A stretch of 64,000 nt of DNA from Dialister hominis (lineage in GTDB: Bacteria > Bacillota > Negativicutes > Veillonellales > Dialisteraceae), in the NCBI RefSeq assembly GCF_007164725.1, contig NZ_AP019697.1:1833501-1897500 (forward strand), given 5' to 3'. Positions within the stretch are counted from its first letter, which is position 1, and each line of letters starts with the position of its first letter. Position numbers and translations under genes: made by a program. The notes under the pieces were generated by a model, which saw nothing but the letters and a program-made list of their open reading frames with translations, was not told the origin of the DNA and ran no database searches. Of this stretch, positions 3,133 through 59,464 are shown piece by piece.

Positions 3133-3164
3133 GGGGATGTGACAAAATTCATCCCAACAAAAAA

Positions 3165-3200
3165 GGCTCTGCCCCGGATCATTTGGTCCGGGGCAGAGCC
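3165..3200 (+). terminator. Hairpin in the left end of the IS1182-type element
   Basis: Stem GGCTCTGCCCCGGA (3165-3178) pairs with TCCGGGGCAGAGCC (3187-3200), followed by TTTCG. It probably insulates the transposase from outside transcription. A TATAAT at 3209-3214 lies only 8 bases before the ATG, so any transcript from it would be near-leaderless. Confidence 0.65.
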
Positions 3201-3222
3201 TTTCGTGTTATAATTTTTTACA

Positions 3223-4800
3223 ATGAAAAATAACAACACTAGCAATCATTTTACCGCAGAACAAGGCATTTTGCCAATGTTTCCCTCTGAGATTCTCAAT
3301 GTCGATGATCCTGTTTTAATGTATGACAGATTTATGGAGGAAATCGATCTTAAAAAGTACCTTCGTTACATACCGACGCGTGGCGCTGGCAGACCCAGGT
3401 ATAATCCCGTCAACATGCTGAAAACGATCATCTATGGTTTCGCAGAAGAAGGATATTGCTCTTTTAGAAAACTTGAAGATAATTGCAGGGTTAATATCAG
3501 ATATATGTACCTGATGAATTATGAAGCCCCATCCTATCGGACATTCTGTCATTTCGTGAAGGGCTTTCTTAAGTATTCTCTCAAGGATATCTTTTATTCA
3601 ATTACGAAAGAACTCTGCGGCAAACTCAACGTGGATTTGCAGCATATATATATTGACGGTTCCAAGTTTGAAGCGAACGCAAATAAATACAGCTGGGTAT
3701 GGAAGAAATCCGCTGAAAAATCCCGCTACAAGCATTTTGCCAAGATTACCAGCCTTTTTGAGTTACTCAATGATGATCTTAAGTATGACCATATGAGTGT
3801 AAACATCAATACAGAATACGCTCCGGACTATCTGCGTCTGGTATTGGATAAATTAAAAGAAATCTGGCAGATTGATGAGACGGCCTTTGTTCATGGAAGC
3901 GGGCATCGCAAGTCCGATCATCAACGCAAGTATGAGCAGCTTAAGGCATATACATCAAAACTTGAAGAATATGTTGAGAAGATACAGATATGCGGTACTT
4001 CCAGAAACAGTTATTCGAAGACCGATACGGATGCAACATTCATGCGAATCAAGTCGGACTACATGGGAAATGATCAGCTTCTGCCTGCATACAATGTCCA
4101 AATAGGTGTTGCCGATGAATTTATTGCCGTAATTGATGTTAACCAGTATCGTTCAGATATGGATTGCTTCGTACCGCTGATGGAGGAATTCCACGAAGTC
4201 TATGGGGCTTATCCTAAGTATCCTGTGGCAGATGCAGGATATGGATCTTTCAACAATTACATCTATTGCGAGCAGCACGGTATGGAAAAGTATATGAAAT
4301 TCCCCATGTACAAGAAAGAAACGAAAGACAAGAAATACCATACCAATCCGTTTCGGCCAATAAACTTTAGAGTTGATGAGAATGGAACCATCCGTTGTCC
4401 AAATGACAGGGCTTTCAAATTTATCTATAGACATCTGGTCAGAGGGAACTTATACGGCAGGCAGGAGGAAGTATTTGAATGCGAAGACTGCCAAGGATGC
4501 CCGCTGGCAGAGCAATGTAAAAAGACCCCGAAGAACAAAAGAATCTCATTGAGCAGAGAACGGAATAACATGTACCAGGAGGTTCAGGATAATCTGGAAA
4601 GCATCCATGGAGCCCTGCTAAGAATGAACCGGTCAATCCAGGCTGAAGGAACTTTTGGAATCATGAAACATGACAGATGGTACAAAAGAATCGTCAGAAA
4701 AGGGATAGATTCTGTAAAAGCCGAGTTATACCTGGTAGCACTTGGCTATAATTTAAGGAAATACATCACAAAAATAATGCGTATAAGGATTGCCGCCTAA
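3223..4800 (+). CDS. IS1182-family DDE transposase
   Basis: 525 residues, full length for IS1182 transposases. The N-terminal part (about residues 15-120: MFPSEIL, RGAGRPRYNP, TFCHFVK) is the DUF772-like domain. The DDE catalytic core shows YIDGSKFEANANK (first Asp), VADAGYGSFNNY (second Asp) and AEGTFGIMKHDRWY (Glu). A Cys cluster CEDCQGCPLAEQCKK (about residues 425-440) is usual for the family. No stop or frameshift is visible, so the enzyme could be active. No ribosome binding site precedes the ATG; initiation may be weak or leaderless. The protein probably recognises the GGGGMTGTGACAAAAT ends, which also bound repeat elements elsewhere in the window. Confidence 0.9.
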   Translation: MKNNNTSNHFTAEQGILPMFPSEILNVDDPVLMYDRFMEEIDLKKYLRYIPTRGAGRPRYNPVNMLKTIIYGFAEEGYCSFRKLEDNCRVNIRYMYLMNYEAPSYRTFCHFVKGFLKYSLKDIFYSITKELCGKLNVDLQHIYIDGSKFEANANKYSWVWKKSAEKSRYKHFAKITSLFELLNDDLKYDHMSVNINTEYAPDYLRLVLDKLKEIWQIDETAFVHGSGHRKSDHQRKYEQLKAYTSKLEEYVEKIQICGTSRNSYSKTDTDATFMRIKSDYMGNDQLLPAYNVQIGVADEFIAVIDVNQYRSDMDCFVPLMEEFHEVYGAYPKYPVADAGYGSFNNYIYCEQHGMEKYMKFPMYKKETKDKKYHTNPFRPINFRVDENGTIRCPNDRAFKFIYRHLVRGNLYGRQEEVFECEDCQGCPLAEQCKKTPKNKRISLSRERNNMYQEVQDNLESIHGALLRMNRSIQAEGTFGIMKHDRWYKRIVRKGIDSVKAELYLVALGYNLRKYITKIMRIRIAA

Positions 4801-4905
4801 GACAATATAATTAAAAGTCTTATGGGGGTAAGGGGGCTTACGCGCATTTTTACGTAAAAGGCTTACAGCAGAGCTAAAAATGATGAAATAAAGACGCAAA
4901 AAAGA

Positions 4906-4951
4906 GGCTGCAACAAAATGATTAACCATTTTGTCACAGCCCCTTTTTTTC
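4906..4951. terminator. Right-end hairpin of the IS element, likely terminator
   Basis: GGCTGCAACAAAATG (4906-4920) pairs with CATTTTGTCACAGCC (4927-4941), followed by a run of T. It also lies directly downstream of the minus-strand biotin synthase gene that ends at 4956, but the U tract favours plus-strand termination. Confidence 0.6.
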
Positions 4952-9145: not shown

Positions 9146-9313
9146 AAAATTTTTGACTTTTATTTTTCGATTTTTGAAAGTCCGCATATTTACGGAACAT
9201 TCACGTTCTAAACTTATTGATTTTTTGACTTTTATCTTGTCAAAGTTAGCCATAAAGCACCATTCATTTTTCTTTTGAAAAGGAGAAATTGCATCAAAAA
9301 GATAAAAGAAGAA

Positions 9314-9564
9314 GCTGTGGCAAAATGTACAATCATTTTGCCACAACCCCTTCTTTGTGTTGATATAGCTGCCCAGAGAATTAATCTAACATAGATATAC
9401 AATCTCTACAATCTAAAAACCTCAAAACCTCGCTACGCTCGTGGAACTACTGTATTCCCCGGCTTCGCCGGGACCTTCTCCTTCGGAGCAAGGTTAACAC
9501 CCTTAAACCGAACTTCGTTCGAGAAAAGGAGAAAGAGCGTCTTGGCGGATTTTGCCACAGCCCC
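9314..9564 (+). repeat. Terminal-inverted-repeat element, copy A
   Basis: About 250 bp, starting with GCTGTGGCAAAATG (followed by its own complement, forming a hairpin at 9314-9347) and ending with ATTTTGCCACAGCCCC. The interior carries CCTCGCTACGCTCG, a CCTTCTCCTTCGGAGCAAGG hairpin, TTAACACCCTTAAACCG and ACTTCGTTCGAGAAAAGG, all shared in the same order with copy B (59.0-59.26 kb) and copy C (split around 19.7/21.6 kb). No gene inside. Confidence 0.8.
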
Positions 9565-9593
9565 TTCCTTTTTCAATTCTCAAATCAATCAAA

Positions 9594-15466: not shown

Positions 15467-15515
15467 ACATTTCATAGAACAGAGAAAACATGACAGATAT
15501 GAATGTATAAAGAAA

Positions 15516-15722
15516 GCGGCTGTGGAAATGTAAAATCATTTCGTCACAGCCGCCTTTCGTGACGGTTTATTTGACTAGAGGATACCCGCAAGTATCTTGG
15601 GATTAGCTGAAGACAGAAAACCATACAACCAGCCTTCGGCTGAGGAAATGCAACTCATCCGCCCGACATCAGAATTTGAGGTCGGGCACCTTCCCTTCCA
15701 GGGCAAGGTCAAAACTGCCATA
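15516..15722 (+). repeat. Mosaic repeat with the GCTGTG hairpin head, copy E
   Basis: Starts with the hairpin GCGGCTGTGGAAATG / CATTTCGTCACAGCCGC (15516-15553), then a TTTGACTAGAGGATA-like spacer, CCATACAACCAGCCTTCGGC, AACTCATCCGCCCGACATC and CCTTCCCTTCCAGGGCAAGG. The same module order recurs at 34.35-34.43 kb. No gene inside. Confidence 0.7.
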
Positions 15723-21483: not shown

Positions 21484-21641
21484 AAGGTGTCAGCGTAGCT
21501 GACGGATACAGTAGTTCTCGAGCGAAGCGAAATTTTATGGTTTTCAAGCAGAACCAATAAATACAGTTGTTAGATAACCTTTTAATGAAATATCCCAACA
21601 CAAAAGGGAGCTGCAGAAATGATTGTACATTTCTACAGCCC
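21484..21641 (-). repeat. Terminal-inverted-repeat element, copy C, left half
   Basis: On the minus strand it starts GGGCTGTAGAAATG with a hairpin partner CATTTCTGCAGCTCC. It continues through GTTATCTAACAACTG and CGCTTCGCTCGAGAACTACT and breaks at GACACCTT, where the IS sits. It matches the left half of copy B at 59.0 kb. Confidence 0.85.
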
Positions 21642-21648
21642 CTCATTT

Positions 21649-23566: not shown

Positions 23567-23606
23567 AAAAAGGGCTGTGATGAATGGTTTCCCATTTACC
23601 ACGGTC
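23567..23606 (-). terminator. Terminator of the EAL-domain gene
   Basis: GGGCTGTGATGAATGG (23572-23587) pairs with CCATTTACCACGGTCC, followed on the minus strand by TTTTT. It resembles the GCTGTG hairpin heads of the repeat family. Confidence 0.65.
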
Positions 23607-23620
23607 CTTCTTTTTATTCT

Positions 23621-28466: not shown

Positions 28467-28505
28467 ATATACTCCATTTCTATTTCTATTTCTAGTAAAA
28501 AGATA

Positions 28506-28793
28506 AGCTGCGGCAAAATGCGCAATCATCCTGCCACAGCCGCTTTTTCTCTGAAATTTATCTATCGAGGAAATAGACAAATTCAGTCCTAACAAAAATC
28601 TGATAAAAATAAGAAGGGCTGGTCTGCTCAAATAAAGAGCGAATGGAAAAATCATACAACCGGACTTCGTCCGTGGTAATCAGCCCTATCCGCCCGGTCT
28701 TTTTAGAAACTGCACCTTTGAAAACCATAAAACCAGCCTGACGGCTGAGGAACTACATCTCATCCGTCTCGTACACTAACTTATTAGGCATTT
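28506..28793 (+). repeat. Mosaic repeat with GCTG hairpin head, copy F, cut by the IS110-type element
   Basis: Begins AGCTGCGGCAAAATG with a hairpin partner (28506-28540). It continues with CATACAACCGGACTTCGTCC, CCTATCCGCCCGG, TTTTTAGAAACTGCACC and CTCATCC, then CGTACACTAACTTAT. The last module also occurs at 30.69 and 62.5 kb, where it continues without interruption, so the IS110-type element probably inserted here. Confidence 0.65.
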
Positions 28794-30916: not shown

Positions 30917-31486
30917 TTATTCTTTGGTGAATTTGGTTCCTTCTCTCCATGCGCGGCCTGCAACATCGCCTAAACGGATGTAGGTGCCGTGGACGGGGTC
31001 GAATGTCAGGGGTTCGATAAGAGACGGGTCGAGCTTGCCGCCGGTCAGGACGGATTCATCAGCCAGGATATTGACGATTTCTCCTACGATGTACCAGTCT
31101 TCGCCTTCCTGTGTGGTCTTCACGACCTTGCATTCGAAAGTGAGCGGGAATTCTTCAATGACAGGAGCGTCTACATGCTCGCTCTTGACGGCATGGAAGC
31201 CTGCCTTCTCGATTTTCCCTTTTACCTTGTGGCCGCTGACGGTGCCGAAGTAGTCAGCTTCTGCCATCGTCTTCAGGGTCGCCATGCTGACGGTGAAGGC
31301 GCCGGTTTCCAGGATATTGTCCGTCGTCTTGTGGTTATGGTCGAGCATGAAGCCAATCTTGTTCGTGTCATAGATGCCGCCCCAGGCAGCGACCATGGCA
31401 TCAGTCTCCCCTGCTTTGTCCTGGGAAACGATGACGAGCGCCGGCTGCGGATAAATCCATGATGCGGGTTTGAAACTTTTCTTCAT
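30917..31486 (-). CDS. Flavin reductase family protein (flavoredoxin-like)
   Basis: 189 residues from the ATG at 31486 with GGAGGG 7 bases upstream; the longer frame to 31507 is not needed. FMN-binding split-barrel fold: PALVIVSQDKAGETDAMVAAWGG near residue 15 is the typical FMN phosphate region, followed by DHNHKTTDNILETGAFTVSM and YFGTVSGHKVKGK. It probably acts as a soluble electron carrier or NAD(P)H:flavin oxidoreductase in anaerobic metabolism. No operon partner; repeats lie on its downstream side. Exact partner unknown. Confidence 0.85.
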   Translation of the reverse strand: MKKSFKPASWIYPQPALVIVSQDKAGETDAMVAAWGGIYDTNKIGFMLDHNHKTTDNILETGAFTVSMATLKTMAEADYFGTVSGHKVKGKIEKAGFHAVKSEHVDAPVIEEFPLTFECKVVKTTQEGEDWYIVGEIVNILADESVLTGGKLDPSLIEPLTFDPVHGTYIRLGDVAGRAWREGTKFTKE

Positions 31487-31595
31487 AGAAATCCCTCCTG
31501 TATCCAAAATTCCCTTTATTTTATTTATACATTCTAAAGATTATTATACCACGGGCGGGGAGCGTGAGCGCCCTTCCCCGTTGGCCCCGCGCAGT

Positions 31596-31634
31596 AAAAA
31601 TCCCGATGGAATCCGGGAAGAGATTCCATCGGGA
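31596..31634 (-). terminator. Terminator of the AEC transporter gene
   Basis: Perfect 13 bp stem TCCCGATGGAATC (31601-31613) with GATTCCATCGGGA (31622-31634), followed on the minus strand by TTTTT. Confidence 0.88.
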
Positions 31635-31658
31635 GGAAGGGATTATTTATGTATATCC

Positions 31659-32597
31659 TCAGGAGAGGAGGTACATATAAAAGGGAATGAAGAAGATCCC
31701 CAGCATCAGGGAGACGCAGTTGATCATCGTCGAGTAATCAGCATCGGCGCCGACGGAATTGGCGAGAATCGTCATGTTCGTCATAGCCGGCATGCCTGCC
31801 TGCATGAGGAAGACCTTCGCGGACATCGCGCTGACCGGAATGAACGGCAGCAGGATGAAAAGGCAGAGCGGTGAAAGGACGAAGCGCCCGAACATCGCGC
31901 CCACAAGATCGCGGTCGAGACGGATCTCGGAGAACGGAATATGCGCCATCTGGATCCCGATGACGATAAGGGCCATCGGCGTTGCGATATTTCCTACGTA
32001 ATGGCATGCCGTCAAAAGGAAGTGCGGCAGCGGAATATTGAGGAGAATGAGGAGAACGCCTGTGATGAATCCCATGAGCGGCGGTGTGCGCAGCTTCAGG
32101 AGCATTTCCTTCACAGTGAATTTATGGTCACCGCCGGCATCCTTGACGATGAGGTACGCGCCAAGAAACCAGAACATCGCGGTATTTGCGATATAGTACA
32201 GCATGCAGGAAGGCACGCTCGCTTCACCGAAGAGTGCCATATTGACCGGAAGGCCGATGAAGATGGCATTCGCAATGCAGCAGGTGCAGGTGAAGACGCC
32301 GCGGCGGCTCTTCGTGATATTCAGCACTTTGGCCAGGACGCGGCCGGCGAGGTACGCCACGAAAATCGAGGCAAAAGGAAGAAGCATGTCCGGCGCTGTT
32401 TCGATCAGCTGGTCATGCGTGAAATTCGAGTATAAAGAGTAAATCATCAGAGGCGGCAGCGCCACTGACATCGTAAACTTCGTCAGATCTTTCCCGGCGG
32501 ACTCCCAGAAGAAACCCATCCGGCTCAAAAAGAAACCTAGACCCGCAATCACAGCTACTTCAAAAATACCTGACAACCCCTGCAGAATCGCATCCAT
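31659..32597 (-). CDS. AEC family transporter (auxin efflux carrier-like permease)
   Basis: 312 residues, about ten hydrophobic helices in two repeats of five. The start MDAILQGLSGIFEVAVIAGLGFFLSRMGFF and the central SRRGVFTCTCCIANAIFIGLPV, with the broken-helix G-x-P, are typical of bacterial AEC proteins that move dicarboxylates such as malate or succinate. The divergent LysR gene 247 bases away probably controls it. Monocistronic with a strong terminator. The substrate is a guess by family. Confidence 0.85.
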   Translation of the reverse strand: MDAILQGLSGIFEVAVIAGLGFFLSRMGFFWESAGKDLTKFTMSVALPPLMIYSLYSNFTHDQLIETAPDMLLPFASIFVAYLAGRVLAKVLNITKSRRGVFTCTCCIANAIFIGLPVNMALFGEASVPSCMLYYIANTAMFWFLGAYLIVKDAGGDHKFTVKEMLLKLRTPPLMGFITGVLLILLNIPLPHFLLTACHYVGNIATPMALIVIGIQMAHIPFSEIRLDRDLVGAMFGRFVLSPLCLFILLPFIPVSAMSAKVFLMQAGMPAMTNMTILANSVGADADYSTMINCVSLMLGIFFIPFYMYLLS

Positions 32598-32671
32598 ACC
32601 CCAAATACCTCAAATTTTCTAAATTTTCAATAACTAACCCAAGATTTATACAAAATTGCACTGAAATTCTG

Positions 32672-32701
32672 TTTACAGCATAGCCTATCTTGTCATATAA
32701 T
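32672..32701 (+). promoter_or_regulatory. Promoter of the LysR regulator gene
   Basis: TTTACA (32672-32677), 18 bp spacer, TATAAT (32696-32701). The shared 247 bp gap with the AEC gene is AT-rich and also holds GAAT-N5-ATTC near 32790, a possible regulator site. Confidence 0.6.
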
Positions 32702-32844
32702 TCAAATTAAGATAATGAATTTCACTTATAACGATTCAGTATAATTAAACATCTCGATTGTTCTATGTTCATTATTTTTTCGAATAAGCGGAATCGCGTA
32801 TTCGCATAAGTTCTTTTTTATCAATAGAATAGGGGGGAATTCAC

Positions 32845-33738
32845 TTGAATCTGGAATTTTACAAAAATTTCATTGCGATCGTCGAGGCGGGGGGCCTCAA
32901 TAAGGCATCGCGCCAGATCCATGTCGCACAGCCTGCACTGACCCGTCAGCTCCAGCTGATGGAAAAAGAATACGGGGCTGCGCTCGTCGACCCAAGAAGA
33001 GGCCGGCACAGTTTGAAACTCACGGAAGCCGGATGGATCTTCTATCGCCAGGCAAAACAGATTTATGAGACAGACCAGACAACGCACGCGGAAATCGAAG
33101 CGCTCACAGCAGGCCTCACAGGCACCCTGCGCATCAGCGTCTTCCCGTCGTACGCGCCTTTCCTGTTCCAGAAAATCATTCCGCAGTTCCATGAGAAATA
33201 CCCGGACCTCTGCTTCCGCATCCGCGAATCCTATCACACTACGCTCGTCGACGACATCCGCACCGGCGTCTCTGAAATAGGCATCGCCAATGCGCCGCTT
33301 CCTGATCCGTCCTTCTTTAAGATCCTCAGAAAGGAAGAATGCCAGATCATGATCGCAGGCCCGAAGGGAAGCCCGCTTCTTGCAGAAAACGAGACCATCA
33401 CGCCCGACATGCTCGCCGGACAGCCTCTCGCCGTCAGCAGAAGCACCGAAGAAATCATCAAGAAACTCTTCCGCTCCCACAACATCGTCCCGAGAATCCT
33501 CTTCTCCCTCGACACACGCTCCTCCGCCATGGACGCCGCTGAAAGCAAAATGGCATTCGGCATCGTCGTCAGGGACGAAGGCGATATCTATCCGACAGAA
33601 ACCCTCACCTTCCGTCCGCTCGCCATGCCAGACGTACCGATTGGAAAGACCTTCTTCTGCCAGAAAGGCCACCGCCTGAGCAAAGCCATGGAAGAATTCC
33701 TGGCAGCATTCCCGGAAACCGCTGAAATCGAAGAATAA
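32845..33738 (+). CDS. LysR-type transcriptional regulator
   Basis: 297 residues starting at a TTG with AGGGGGG 7 bases upstream. The N-terminal winged HTH is clear: NLEFYKNFIAIVEAGGLNKASRQIHVAQPALTRQLQLMEKEYGAALVDP (residues 1-50). A linker helix follows, then the periplasmic-binding-like effector domain from about residue 88 (GTLRISVFPSYAPFLFQKIIPQF). It is transcribed away from the AEC transporter, the usual arrangement for a LysR protein and its target. The effector is unknown; an organic acid carried by the transporter is plausible. Confidence 0.92.
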   Translation: MNLEFYKNFIAIVEAGGLNKASRQIHVAQPALTRQLQLMEKEYGAALVDPRRGRHSLKLTEAGWIFYRQAKQIYETDQTTHAEIEALTAGLTGTLRISVFPSYAPFLFQKIIPQFHEKYPDLCFRIRESYHTTLVDDIRTGVSEIGIANAPLPDPSFFKILRKEECQIMIAGPKGSPLLAENETITPDMLAGQPLAVSRSTEEIIKKLFRSHNIVPRILFSLDTRSSAMDAAESKMAFGIVVRDEGDIYPTETLTFRPLAMPDVPIGKTFFCQKGHRLSKAMEEFLAAFPETAEIEE

Positions 33739-34080: not shown

Positions 34081-34120
34081 CTTATCCACAAATATTATAA
34101 GTCGCTCCACTAACCAAAAA

Positions 34121-34455
34121 GGAGCTTTGACAAAAATGATTGCACTTTTTGTCAAAGCTCCTTTTGTGTGGGTATATTCGATTAGAGGATTATCCAACAA
34201 AATAAAAACCTGAGCGATGATGCTTCGCCTTCTTAGAAAATGCAACTCTTTCGCCCAGCATCGGAAAAGTGATAGGCTGGGCACTTTCCCCTCCGGGAAC
34301 AGTTCGGCGATGTGAAATATAAGAAATCAGTTCTGTTTTGTTTTGAACTTATATACCTGCGGCTGAGGAAATGCAACTCATCCGCCCGACATCAGAATTT
34401 GAGGTCGGGCACCTTCCCTTCCAGGGCAAGGTCAAAGGCGTTTTGCCACAGTTCC
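34121..34455 (+). repeat. Terminal-inverted-repeat element, copy D
   Basis: Starts with a perfect 16 bp hairpin GGAGCTTTGACAAAAA / TTTTTGTCAAAGCTCC (34121-34161), then GATTAGAGGATTATCCAAC. It ends with GTTTTGCCACAGTTCC next to pfkA. The interior differs from copies A-C: a CCGCCCGACATCAGAATTTG module and CCTTCCCTTCCAGGGCAAGG, shared with copy E. Confidence 0.7.
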
Positions 34456-49119: not shown

Positions 49120-50793
49120 ATGGCTGACAGTTCATTTTCATATACATCCATCTTCAGAGGAAAGACATTGATGGTCGTCATCCCTCATGAGGATGATGAA
49201 ATCAACGTTGCCGGATCAACGATTCACGGCGCCATTCTGGAAGGGGTTCACGTTATCTGCGTTTTCTCCACATGGGGCGATGATTTATATACGCCAGATA
49301 TCCGGAGGAGAGAAGCTGTAAAGGCACTGAAAACATTAGGCGTCAAGGAGGATGATGTCATATTCCTTGGCTATCCGGATGGAGGGCGTTATGGGGAATC
49401 TGACCCTTACATATACGGTCTAAATGAACCAATTACCGTTCGCGGCCGCCATGAAACGTACGGGACAAAAGCTGCTCCTGATTTCTGTATGGCAGCACAT
49501 GGATTCCACCGTCCTTTCACGCGGGAAGGCATGATTCAGGATATGGAAGATGTCGTCCTTGCTCATAAGCCGGATGCCATTCTCTGCATTGATTATGACA
49601 TCCATCCGGATCATCGTGCCTGTTCGGCTGCCTTCGAGACAGCTATGGGACGGATCCTTCAGCGCCCGGGAAATGAATATTTCCCTGTCATTTTCAAAGG
49701 ATTTGCTTATAAGACCGCTTTTGAATCCGTACCGGATTTCTATGCGCCTCACATGCTGTCCACCGTTTTCGCACGGGATAATCTTCCCGAACCTTCCTGG
49801 GAAACGTCAAATCCTGCCTATGCATGGGATGAGAGAATCAGGCTTCCTGTTCCCGAGGAATGCAGAAGGCCTCTTCTTTCTGATAACCTCATTCATAAGG
49901 CTTTTTGCTGTCACGTATCACAAAAAGGCTACCGATATGCCGCTAAGGTCGCCAATGGTGATCAGGTCTTCTGGAAACGCCGCACGGATAATCTCTCCAT
50001 GCAGGCTGCTGTTTCAGCATCCTCTGGAAATATCAAGTATCTGAATGACTTTCTCCTTCTGGGCAGTTCAGACATGGCAAAGCCCGCCATGCCGATGGAT
50101 GACTGCCTCTGGGCACCTCCCGAAGATGACAAAGTAAAAACCTGCCGCCTTACATTTACCCATCCGGTGACCATCCGCGAAGCGGTTCTCTATGGGAACA
50201 TTGATACGGAAAGCCGCATCCTTGACGGTACGCTTCGGTTCAGTACAGGATATGAATTCCGCACAGGACCATTCCGAAAGAACGGCCTCCCTAATGACTT
50301 TTCCATCGAAGTGCAGAAATCTGTAGACTGGGTGGAATTTACCATCAATGAAGCAGAAGGATCCACTCCTGGTCTCACGGAACTTGAACTCTATGAAGAA
50401 GAAGATACTGCTTCAATGATCCATATTCTTGCCGATGGAAACTTTGCTTATGACTGGACCGTTTGGCCTGGTGAAAAGCCCAAGATTTCTGCATGGACTT
50501 ATGGCTCGGATGATGATGTATCCTGGGAAATGAACGGAAGTCCATCAAGCATCGGGCAAATCCAAGAAGAGCTGAATCGACTAAAGAAACCGATTACCAT
50601 CTGTGCTTTTCTTACAGAGCATCCAGACATTTGGGATGAAGCCGTTTTTGCTCCGGGCTCTTCCGCTGCTCTCCGCTCTTTACGTTTCCATCAGAAACTG
50701 GATCGTTGGAAAAATACATTTGAAAGGTTCCGCCAGAAATCTCAGCATCACGCACTCCGTAAAGAAGCAAAAAAAGAAAAATCGAAGAAATAA
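49120..50793 (+). CDS. PIG-L family deacetylase with C-terminal extension
   Basis: 557 residues, about twice the usual length. The N-terminal zinc deacetylase (about 1-260) has VIPHEDDEIN (His23 and Asp25/26 region) and DYDIHPDHRACSAAF, the Zn-binding H-x-x-H. Family members remove acetyl groups from GlcNAc-type substrates. The C-terminal 300 residues have a beta-sandwich-like part (LTFTHPVTIREAVLYGNIDTESRILDGTLRF) reminiscent of carbohydrate-binding F5/8 modules, and a basic tail KKEKSKK. Next to LPS genes, so a role in modifying an envelope glycan is likely. AGGAGG precedes the ATG. Confidence 0.82.
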   Translation: MADSSFSYTSIFRGKTLMVVIPHEDDEINVAGSTIHGAILEGVHVICVFSTWGDDLYTPDIRRREAVKALKTLGVKEDDVIFLGYPDGGRYGESDPYIYGLNEPITVRGRHETYGTKAAPDFCMAAHGFHRPFTREGMIQDMEDVVLAHKPDAILCIDYDIHPDHRACSAAFETAMGRILQRPGNEYFPVIFKGFAYKTAFESVPDFYAPHMLSTVFARDNLPEPSWETSNPAYAWDERIRLPVPEECRRPLLSDNLIHKAFCCHVSQKGYRYAAKVANGDQVFWKRRTDNLSMQAAVSASSGNIKYLNDFLLLGSSDMAKPAMPMDDCLWAPPEDDKVKTCRLTFTHPVTIREAVLYGNIDTESRILDGTLRFSTGYEFRTGPFRKNGLPNDFSIEVQKSVDWVEFTINEAEGSTPGLTELELYEEEDTASMIHILADGNFAYDWTVWPGEKPKISAWTYGSDDDVSWEMNGSPSSIGQIQEELNRLKKPITICAFLTEHPDIWDEAVFAPGSSAALRSLRFHQKLDRWKNTFERFRQKSQHHALRKEAKKEKSKK

Positions 50794-50823: not shown

Positions 50824-50893
50824 AAAAGGTTGTGCCCTGGATCATTGATCCGGGACACAACCTTTTTGGCTGGAATGAATTTTGTCACATTCC
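50824..50893 (-). repeat. Solitary IS1182-type left end used as a gene-end hairpin
   Basis: On the minus strand GGAATGTGACAAAATTCATTC is followed by a GGTTGTGTCCCGGATC hairpin. Together they match the left end of the IS1182-type element (3134-3205) over about 70 bases, with compensating changes in the stem (AAAGGTTGTGCCCTGGATC / GATCCGGGACACAACCTTT). No transposase is attached. It lies between two convergent genes and probably terminates both. Confidence 0.75.
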
Positions 50894-50917
50894 TTTTTTA
50901 CTATTATTCTCTCTCCT

Positions 50918-52102
50918 TTAGTCTCTTGTGAAGAGGTCTCTTGTATAAACCTTTTCCTTCACATCTTCGAGGTCTTTTTCTTCGCGGTTGGTGAGGATGA
51001 TGTCGCATTCATCCTTGAGCTGCTGGAGGTCTTTCGTGACGGGGATGCCCATGAAGGAGTCTCCCTTATAAGACGGTTCGTAGATGAGAAGGGGAATGTC
51101 CTTGTTCTTCAGACGCTCGATGACGCCCTGAATGGCGGAGGAGCGGAAGTTGTCGCTGCCGCTCTTCATGATGAGGCGGTAGATGCCGGCTTTCTTCGGA
51201 TTTCTGGCGGCAATGCGGTCAGCGATGAAGGATTTCCTTGTCTCGTTGGAATCGACGACGGCGCGGATCATGGTTTCCGGGATGCCTTCGAAGTTCGAGA
51301 GGAGCTGTCGGGTGTCTTTCGGCAGGCAGTATCCGCCGTAGCCGAAGGAAGGATTGTTGTAGAAATCGCCGATTCTGGGGTCGTAGCCCATGCCTTTGAT
51401 AATGTCGGCGGTCTTCAGGCCCTTTTCTTCGGCATAGGTGTCGATTTCATTGAAGTAGGCGACGCGGATGGCGAGGAAGGTGTTGGAGAAGAGTTTGATG
51501 GACTCTGCTTCAGACGATCCTGTGATGAGGACCGGAATGTTCTCGCGGACGGCGCCTTCCTGTTCCAGGGCTGCGAATTTTTCTGCTTCGGGGCGGAGGG
51601 CTTCTTTTCCTTTCGGGATCCCGACGATGATGCGGGACGGGTAGAGGTTGTCGTAGAGAGCTTTGCCTTCGCGGAGGAATTCCGGTGCGAAGAGAATGGA
51701 AAGGTCAGGATAGACGGCAGAAATTTCCTGGGTGTATCCGATCGGAATGGTGGATTTGATGACGACGATGGCCTTGGAACCGACGCGCTGGATCTGGGAG
51801 AGGATGGCTTCGACGGCCGATGTGTCGAAGTGGTTCGTCTCCGTGTCGTAGTTCGTCGGAGCGGCGATGACGATCAGGTCTGCTTCCCTGTATGCGCTGT
51901 CACCGTCCATGGTGGCGGTGAGGTCGAGATCCTTGTGCGCCAGGTAGTCTTCGATATAATCGTCGACGATCGGGGATTCCTTCCTGTTGACCATATCCAC
52001 TTTTTCCTGGATGACGTCCACGGCAGTGACCTTATGGTGCTGGGAGAGGAGGATGGCATTGGAGAGGCCGACGTAGCCTGTGCCTGCAATTGCGATTTTC
52101 AT
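50918..52102 (-). CDS. ugd: UDP-glucose 6-dehydrogenase
   Basis: 394 residues, normal for bacterial Ugd. It oxidises UDP-glucose to UDP-glucuronate with 2 NAD+. The N-terminal Rossmann motif is GTGYVGLSNA. KSTIPIGYTQE and FAPEFLREGKALYD follow. The catalytic Cys is in GYGGYCLPKDTRQL, and the C-terminal UDP-binding domain includes LLIYEPSYKGDSFMGIPV. It supplies glucuronate or derived sugars for surface polysaccharide, in keeping with the nearby LPS cluster. Single gene with its own promoter. Confidence 0.95.
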   Translation of the reverse strand: MKIAIAGTGYVGLSNAILLSQHHKVTAVDVIQEKVDMVNRKESPIVDDYIEDYLAHKDLDLTATMDGDSAYREADLIVIAAPTNYDTETNHFDTSAVEAILSQIQRVGSKAIVVIKSTIPIGYTQEISAVYPDLSILFAPEFLREGKALYDNLYPSRIIVGIPKGKEALRPEAEKFAALEQEGAVRENIPVLITGSSEAESIKLFSNTFLAIRVAYFNEIDTYAEEKGLKTADIIKGMGYDPRIGDFYNNPSFGYGGYCLPKDTRQLLSNFEGIPETMIRAVVDSNETRKSFIADRIAARNPKKAGIYRLIMKSGSDNFRSSAIQGVIERLKNKDIPLLIYEPSYKGDSFMGIPVTKDLQQLKDECDIILTNREEKDLEDVKEKVYTRDLFTRD

Positions 52103-58990: not shown

Positions 58991-59008
58991 GGAAATAGAA
59001 AAAGGAGA

Positions 59009-59259
59009 GGGCTGTGACAAAATGTGTAATCATTTCGTCACAGTCCCTTTTTCTATTGGAATATTCCAGTAAAGGATTATCTAACAAATGTATTTATTGG
59101 GTCTATCTGAAAATTTCAAAACCTCGCTGCGCTCGAGAACTACTGTATCCGTCGCCTCCGGCGACACCTTCTACTTTCGGAGCAAGGTTAACACCCTTAA
59201 ACCGAACTTCGTTCGAGAAAAGGAAAAAGCAGAGTTTTAACGGATTTTGTCACATCCCC
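59009..59259 (+). repeat. Terminal-inverted-repeat element, copy B
   Basis: About 250 bp. Left end GGGCTGTGACAAAATG with hairpin partner CATTTCGTCACAGTCCC (59009-59047), right end ATTTTGTCACATCCCC. The interior order matches copy A: AAAACCTCGCTGCGCTCGAG, the CCGTCGCCTCCGGCGACACC hairpin, GGAGCAAGGTTAACACCC and AACTTCGTTCGAGAAAAGG. The best-preserved copy. Bases 59260-59440 continue with other mosaic modules. Confidence 0.85.
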
Positions 59260-59464
59260 TTTTTGTGGGGGAACATGGTAAGACCCGATAGCAAAGAGAG
59301 AGTAAGCCGGACAACCAGCCTGATGGCTGGAGAAATGCTCTATCCGTTTACACCTTCCCTTCCCAGGGCAAGGTCAAGACCGGCCTACGGCCCTGGTAAT
59401 CGTCCCTAACCGTCACTCCTCATTTTCAGTTAATACCCCATTTTTTGTTTTGATTGTTCTTCAT

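Follow-up and report, generated by a model that had tools for sequence, protein, structure and literature searches.

An insertion-sequence left end between two convergent genes

The window analyzed here, a stretch of 64,000 nucleotides from Dialister hominis, contains two convergent genes: one on the plus strand (49120..50793), encoding a 557-aa protein with a PIG-L (GlcNAc-PI de-N-acetylase) domain and a DUF7402 domain, and one on the minus strand (50918..52102), encoding a 394-aa UDP-glucose 6-dehydrogenase. Between them lies a 70-base segment (50824-50893), read on the minus strand, that corresponds to the left end of an insertion sequence (IS). The segment starts 30 bases past the stop codon of the plus-strand gene, and 24 bases separate its inverted repeat from the end of the minus-strand gene. 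Read along the minus strand, an A-tract is followed by the inverted repeat with a small hairpin, and then by a strong hairpin. The A-tract (a T-tract on the plus strand, 50894..50899) sits just outside the inverted repeat, as it does at most copies of the resident IS described below. According to folding and alignment, minus-strand positions 50872..50893 hold the IS lineage's left inverted repeat together with a small hairpin of 6 pairs. The strong hairpin (50824..50867) forms on both strands, has an A-tract on one side and a T-tract on the other, and is probably a bidirectional terminator.

The UDP-glucose dehydrogenase gene has a paralog in the same genome (G000:C1:1983374-1984555) with 98.2% DNA identity; identity is 92% in the final stretch, and the divergence lies mostly at the 3′ end. 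The pair points to a recent duplication or gene conversion. A different hairpin stands 3′ of the paralog. Both genes share the string ATAGTAA before the hairpin, which fits a replacement but is too short to count.

The reference for the 70-base segment is a resident IS1182-family element on the plus strand of the window (3133..4943), made up of a left repeat and hairpin (~3133-3203), a transposase gene (3223-4800) and a right-end hairpin (~4904-4943). Its terminal inverted repeats, one per end, are GGGGaTGTGACAAAAT and GGGGcTGTGACAAAAT. The transposase belongs to the IS1182 family (NF033551, 290.7 bits against a cut-off of 270) and carries DDE_Tnp_1_6 and DUF772 domains; a sequence search of the PDB returned no structure of any relative. 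The genome holds 36 copies of the element, 34 with a near full-length transposase match and two with a split gene, and one of the 34 has a stop codon in the transposase. We noted that this copy (L143, G000:C1:1052895-1056114) has its ends 3.2 kb apart and was probably interrupted or extended through another insertion. Another copy (L057, G000:C1 ~31140-32950) differs in its right-end hairpin. By eye, the foot of this hairpin fits the copy's own left flank, as if the copy had adopted the hairpin of its target; the inverted arm of the copy is zero at the boundary set by the script.

The initial annotation had matched about 70 bases of the intergenic region to an IS1182-type left end, and the alignment bears this out: 69 of the 70 bases can be aligned, at 81% identity, with the left end of the resident element (3133-4943; E = 3.7 × 10–12, single genome). 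By this alignment and the pair counts given below, the strong hairpin and the one at the left end of the resident element are homologous. A chance match as the source of the similarity was ruled out by this E value together with a left-end covariance model built from the segment and the resident end. In its own genome, this model found 37 strong sites (96–106 bits), namely the 36 IS copies and the segment under study; the remaining matches were these 37 sites read on the opposite strand (43–53 bits) and one weak site (26 bits). The segment is also the only one of the 37 strong sites without a transposase, and the closest transposase of this kind in the genome (3223-4797) lies ~46 kb away. A solitary left end is thus real and unique in this genome.

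No trace of the rest of an element was detected around the segment. A right end of a lost copy was sought with both motif and model, and none lies close by: to the left, the end motif with at most one mismatch is absent over ~31 kb, and the closest right-end-type hairpin found by the model is a single one at 34117, ~17 kb away. Beyond the strong hairpin, an alignment to the IS promoter was not significant (801 and 1436 of 5000 shuffles were as good), nor was an inverted match between the two outer flanks (4091 of 5000 shuffles as good); hence no insertion or deletion scar is visible at the site. Three matches to known RNA families in Rfam were all far below gathering scores and of no relevance.

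The family's 11 other genomes contained no end of this particular type; the left-end model gave three weak matches there, all of at most 27 bits. A search of 380 class genomes, with two candidates scored per genome, returned short matches only, in 10 other genomes, and the end motif was absent from genome_contigs, a collection that possibly does not include this genome. No full-length element with such an end was recovered in the family, class and genome_contigs searches. The single match in viral_contigs (IMGVR_UViG_2883940520_000001, L205/L206, an IMG/VR viral contig) is a copy of the resident IS and not of the type studied here; since its left flank equals that of copy L059, its source is this genome or a near twin of it.

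Folding and stem changes of the left-end hairpin

Folding energies of the strong hairpin are –27.7 kcal/mol on one strand and –28.7 kcal/mol on the other (z = –7.1 and –7.5, respectively), and none of 200 shuffles folded as well. Consistent with the compensating stem changes described in the initial annotation, three of the 25 pairs differ on both sides between this stem and that of the resident IS; two more differ on one side, where G-U keeps the pairing, and on the minus strand a single cell is unpaired. The small hairpin over the inverted repeat (50872..50893) likewise has one pair changed on both sides relative to the resident IS. When partners were slid by 1–3 columns, paired cells fell from 98% to 31–54%, although covariation as high as that observed arose in 60 of 500 shuffles of what are only two sequences. 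The pairing of the stem looks kept; with just two sequences and one solitary left end, the timing of the changes cannot be set, and neither timing nor beneficiary is readable from the pairing itself.

The annotation had gone further and read the stem covariation as a sign that the host selects for the hairpin. To weigh this reading, we turn to the left ends of related elements. Transposase relatives (E up to 10–60) occur in 48 of 380 class genomes, this one included, and at 32 loci in genome_contigs, among them loci from Pectinatus, Megasphaera and Lachnospiraceae. Identity to the resident transposase is 51–69% in the long genome_contigs matches, and the best match in the class is 63% over the full length. 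In the relatives that were read, the left end has the same order as in the resident IS, with an inverted repeat, a strong hairpin, a promoter-like sequence and the transposase following one another; the elements of Pectinatus, Megasphaera and Lachnospiraceae also have a right-end hairpin where this was looked at, but they differ from the resident IS in their transposases (51–69% identical) and in their largely unrelated stem sequences.

Among 36 loci of relatives, 23 were usable, the other 13 having an upstream region too short for the purpose or a transposase start that was not recognized. A strong hairpin (–26 to –38 kcal/mol) precedes the transposase in all 21 loci with a recognizable left repeat, a count that was made without demanding a hairpin and that includes several loci from one Pectinatus genome. 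At the two loci without a recognizable repeat, the best folds were –16.3 and –8.3 kcal/mol. In a set of 15 distinct left ends, picked by a script with a hairpin as one of its requirements, the stems of different lineages share little sequence apart from an A/T foot. Given the 21 of 21 hairpins and the divergent stems, mobile elements themselves retain hairpin pairing while the stem sequence turns over. Covariation of the stem therefore does not imply selection by the host. Because paired but divergent stems occur in mobile elements, the changes in the solitary end may predate the loss of its transposase, having arisen in a second IS lineage that diverged from the resident one while still mobile. 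We conclude that the original observation is right and that a terminator function is plausible, but that the argument from covariation is unsound.

A solitary end between convergent genes, with a hairpin on both strands and A- and T-tracts on its two sides, is most naturally read as a shared terminator, and the site probably stops transcription of both genes. A simple consensus terminator scan reported nothing here, yet by sequence and fold a hairpin with a U-tract fits on both strands. The same scan recovered just a five-pair piece, on one strand, from the left end of the resident IS, and so seems to be a poor detector of this kind of hairpin.

Insertion at gene ends and right-end-type hairpins

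Flanks were compared for 34 of the 36 resident copies, the two with a split transposase being left out since their right end was missed by the text pattern; the 34 include the copy with ends 3.2 kb apart and the copy with a different right end. An A-tract and a T-tract flank 25 of the 34 copies. The left flank is A-rich in 30 and the right flank T-rich in 28; the corresponding rates at randomly chosen places are 5.5% and 5.2%. The two flanks of a copy are mutually inverted, with a mean exact arm of 4.2 compared with 2.7 when flanks were re-paired (reached in 0 of 20,000 permutations; for the 12-base match, 3 of 20,000). The exact inverted arm reaches 16 bp in one copy and at least 7 in five of the 34, and it is zero in eight, with the boundary set by the analyst. 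The signature of replacement is thus statistical, and weak or absent at single copies. Direct repeats of more than three bases were not found in the flanks of the 34 copies.

Gene ends were also compared with those of G005, a genome of another species, using 80 reciprocal best pairs from simple open reading frames in parts of the two genomes. By the analyst's reading, 13 of the 80 pairs have an element or hairpin at the gene end in D. hominis: six are copies of the resident IS, three are ends of other elements and four are solitary hairpins. The same text pattern occurs at none of the 13 orthologous gene ends in G005; about 11 of these have, by eye, a different hairpin with a T-run. One of the six IS copies, L040, is preceded by a second hairpin that the gene has retained as its own. 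From the A- and T-tracts, the inverted flanks and the orthologous gene ends, the resident IS seems to replace terminator hairpins upon insertion.

A precedent exists in staphylococci. According to the available parts of the reports on IS1272 and TnSha1, which belong to the IS1182 family, these elements insert by replacing a stem-loop (PMC5678879). IS1272 targets hairpins, for five of which RNA-seq confirmed a terminator function (PMC4923244), and the target hairpin is lost wholly or partly, without target duplication (PMC5678879; PMC4923244). The resident IS resembles IS1272 in its IS1182-family transposase and matching flank signature. The two cases differ in that empty sites were compared directly for IS1272, whereas orthologs of another species were used here, and the available portions of the two reports do not describe a solitary end serving as a terminator (PMC5678879; PMC4923244). 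Likewise, the accessible part of the literature on solitary IS ends, MITEs or domesticated ends as terminators, and that on Dialister and IS elements, contained no description of such a case, and the accessible text of PMC3281130 held nothing on palindromes.

The right-end hairpin carries the IS inverted repeat on both of its arms. Its motif, TGTGACAAAAT, has 126 occurrences in this genome, compared with zero for a reversed control, and among the matches listed it marks the ends of IS copies, elements of ~230–260 bp, elements of 1.6–2.1 kb and single hairpins at gene ends. Two short elements of ~260 bp lie in the window (9307-9567 and 59004-59262); both pair a right-end-type hairpin with a left-end-type repeat at the opposite end and have no evident gene. 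Motif pairs at similar spacing were seen, among the matches listed, at 247357, 284781 and 1224362 of G000. Elements of ~1.6–2.1 kb with the same end motif, again among the matches listed, lie at G000:C1 235371-237390, 318546-320665, 995737-997340, 1386970-1388573, 1404114-1406090 and 1457816-1459787, and their left ends differ from that of the resident IS.

A right-end covariance model was built from 21 of 29 hairpins and one from the window. Searches with it were capped at 150 scored candidates per genome, and a palindrome counted on both strands. Matches occurred in 10 of 12 genomes of the family; for this genome and two others of the genus, they reached or came close to the cap. G005 has hairpins that match the model and no transposase relatives at E = 10–60. 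We noted that right-end-type hairpins are abundant also in the relatives G003, G005 and G006, and that those of G005 have, by eye, a somewhat different sequence form, CTGTGAAAAAATG. Within the window, the model matched at 15512-15557, 21603-21646, 23567-23612, 28500-28547 and 34117-34165 (29–52 bits); two of these five hairpins adjoin the 3′ end of an open reading frame.

In 464 kb of the genome (the window plus 20 stretches, with a small overlap), the model gave 26 distinct sites of at least 40 bits. Nine of them are solitary, with no left end in the 3 kb to either side, or in as much of it as the stretch covers; two of the nine are at most 1.5 kb from the end of a stretch, so that one side is only partly seen. 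A tenth single hairpin adjoins an IS copy without being part of it, and six of these ten lie 5–24 bp from a stop codon. The search for other solitary ends suggested in the initial annotation thus gave none of the left-end type; right-end-type solitary hairpins are present, several near stop codons, and are not rare, unlike the unique solitary left end. Single hairpins of this type are alike in their loops as well as in their stems, a resemblance that speaks for common descent. They bring to mind REP sequences, reportedly dispersed extragenic palindromes targeted by IS elements. The likeness lies in those very properties; the difference is that the hairpins here carry the IS's own ends and often stand just past a stop codon, as probable terminators.

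Origin and meaning of the solitary left end

We consider it likely that the segment at 50824-50893 is a left-end fossil from a lineage older than, or sister to, that of the resident IS1182-family element; a copy would have replaced a terminator and then lost everything except this end. Elements of this kind carry a strong hairpin between the left inverted repeat and the transposase promoter, presumably as a barrier that keeps outside transcription from running into the transposase gene, and would insert at gene ends by replacing terminator hairpins. An ancient copy would have taken the place of the terminator between the two convergent genes; transposase and right end would later have been lost, and the built-in left-end hairpin would have stayed, most likely stopping transcription from both sides today. 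The homology, the anatomy, the fold, the uniqueness of the site, its lack of a transposase and the replacement signature of the resident IS are observations; how the events followed one another, the deletion and a stop of transcription at the site are inferred, as is the parent lineage, since no full-length element with such an end was found.

A different history would have the IS end adopted by the host, with the stem changes arising after the end had become solitary and the pairing kept by selection for terminating both genes. Three two-sided changes set against one unpaired minus-strand cell, a fold about equally good on the two strands and the usefulness of a bidirectional terminator between two convergent stops all agree with such an adoption. 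Mobile elements show the same paired yet divergent stems, however, so that the changes need not follow the loss of the transposase, and those of a single solitary left end are undatable; we regard this history as rather unlikely. Alternatively, the inverted repeat and terminator could have moved in as a small non-autonomous unit that never had a transposase at this site. The genome does contain elements of ~230–260 bp (9307-9567 and 59004-59262) and solitary right-end-type hairpins, but it has no second transposase-free copy of the left-end unit, and the right-end motif was not found next to the segment, which makes such an arrival quite improbable. Finally, the direction could be reversed, an old host terminator having been captured by an ancestor of the IS as its left end. 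That the IS seems to target terminators would suit a capture, and the wholly different left-end stems of IS lineages would fit repeated captures. Because the match also spans the inverted repeat and the small hairpin, both of which belong to the IS, and nothing above 27 bits occurs in 11 other genomes of the family, a capture is very unlikely. A left-end fossil of the IS lineage thus remains our preferred explanation.

IS1182-type elements appear to remove terminators on insertion and yet bring hairpins at both ends. Their own hairpins would make insertions at gene ends tolerable and would leave a working stop signal behind when an element decays. The case also carries a caution: paired changes in the stem of an IS-derived hairpin are no evidence of adoption by the host, since the mobile elements themselves keep the pairing. 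A broader and more speculative idea, to which we give limited credence, is that terminators of the genus are mobile, a right-end hairpin of ~40 bp spreading by hairpin replacement through an IS1182-type transposase, with the solitary left end as a side product. Such hairpins may spread as units, through the decay of longer elements or by gene conversion. Mobile terminators are possibly the wider pattern and a more interesting lead than the single site described here. If right-end hairpins do move alone, terminators would belong to the mobile portion of the genome, and many genes would end in the same transposable terminator.
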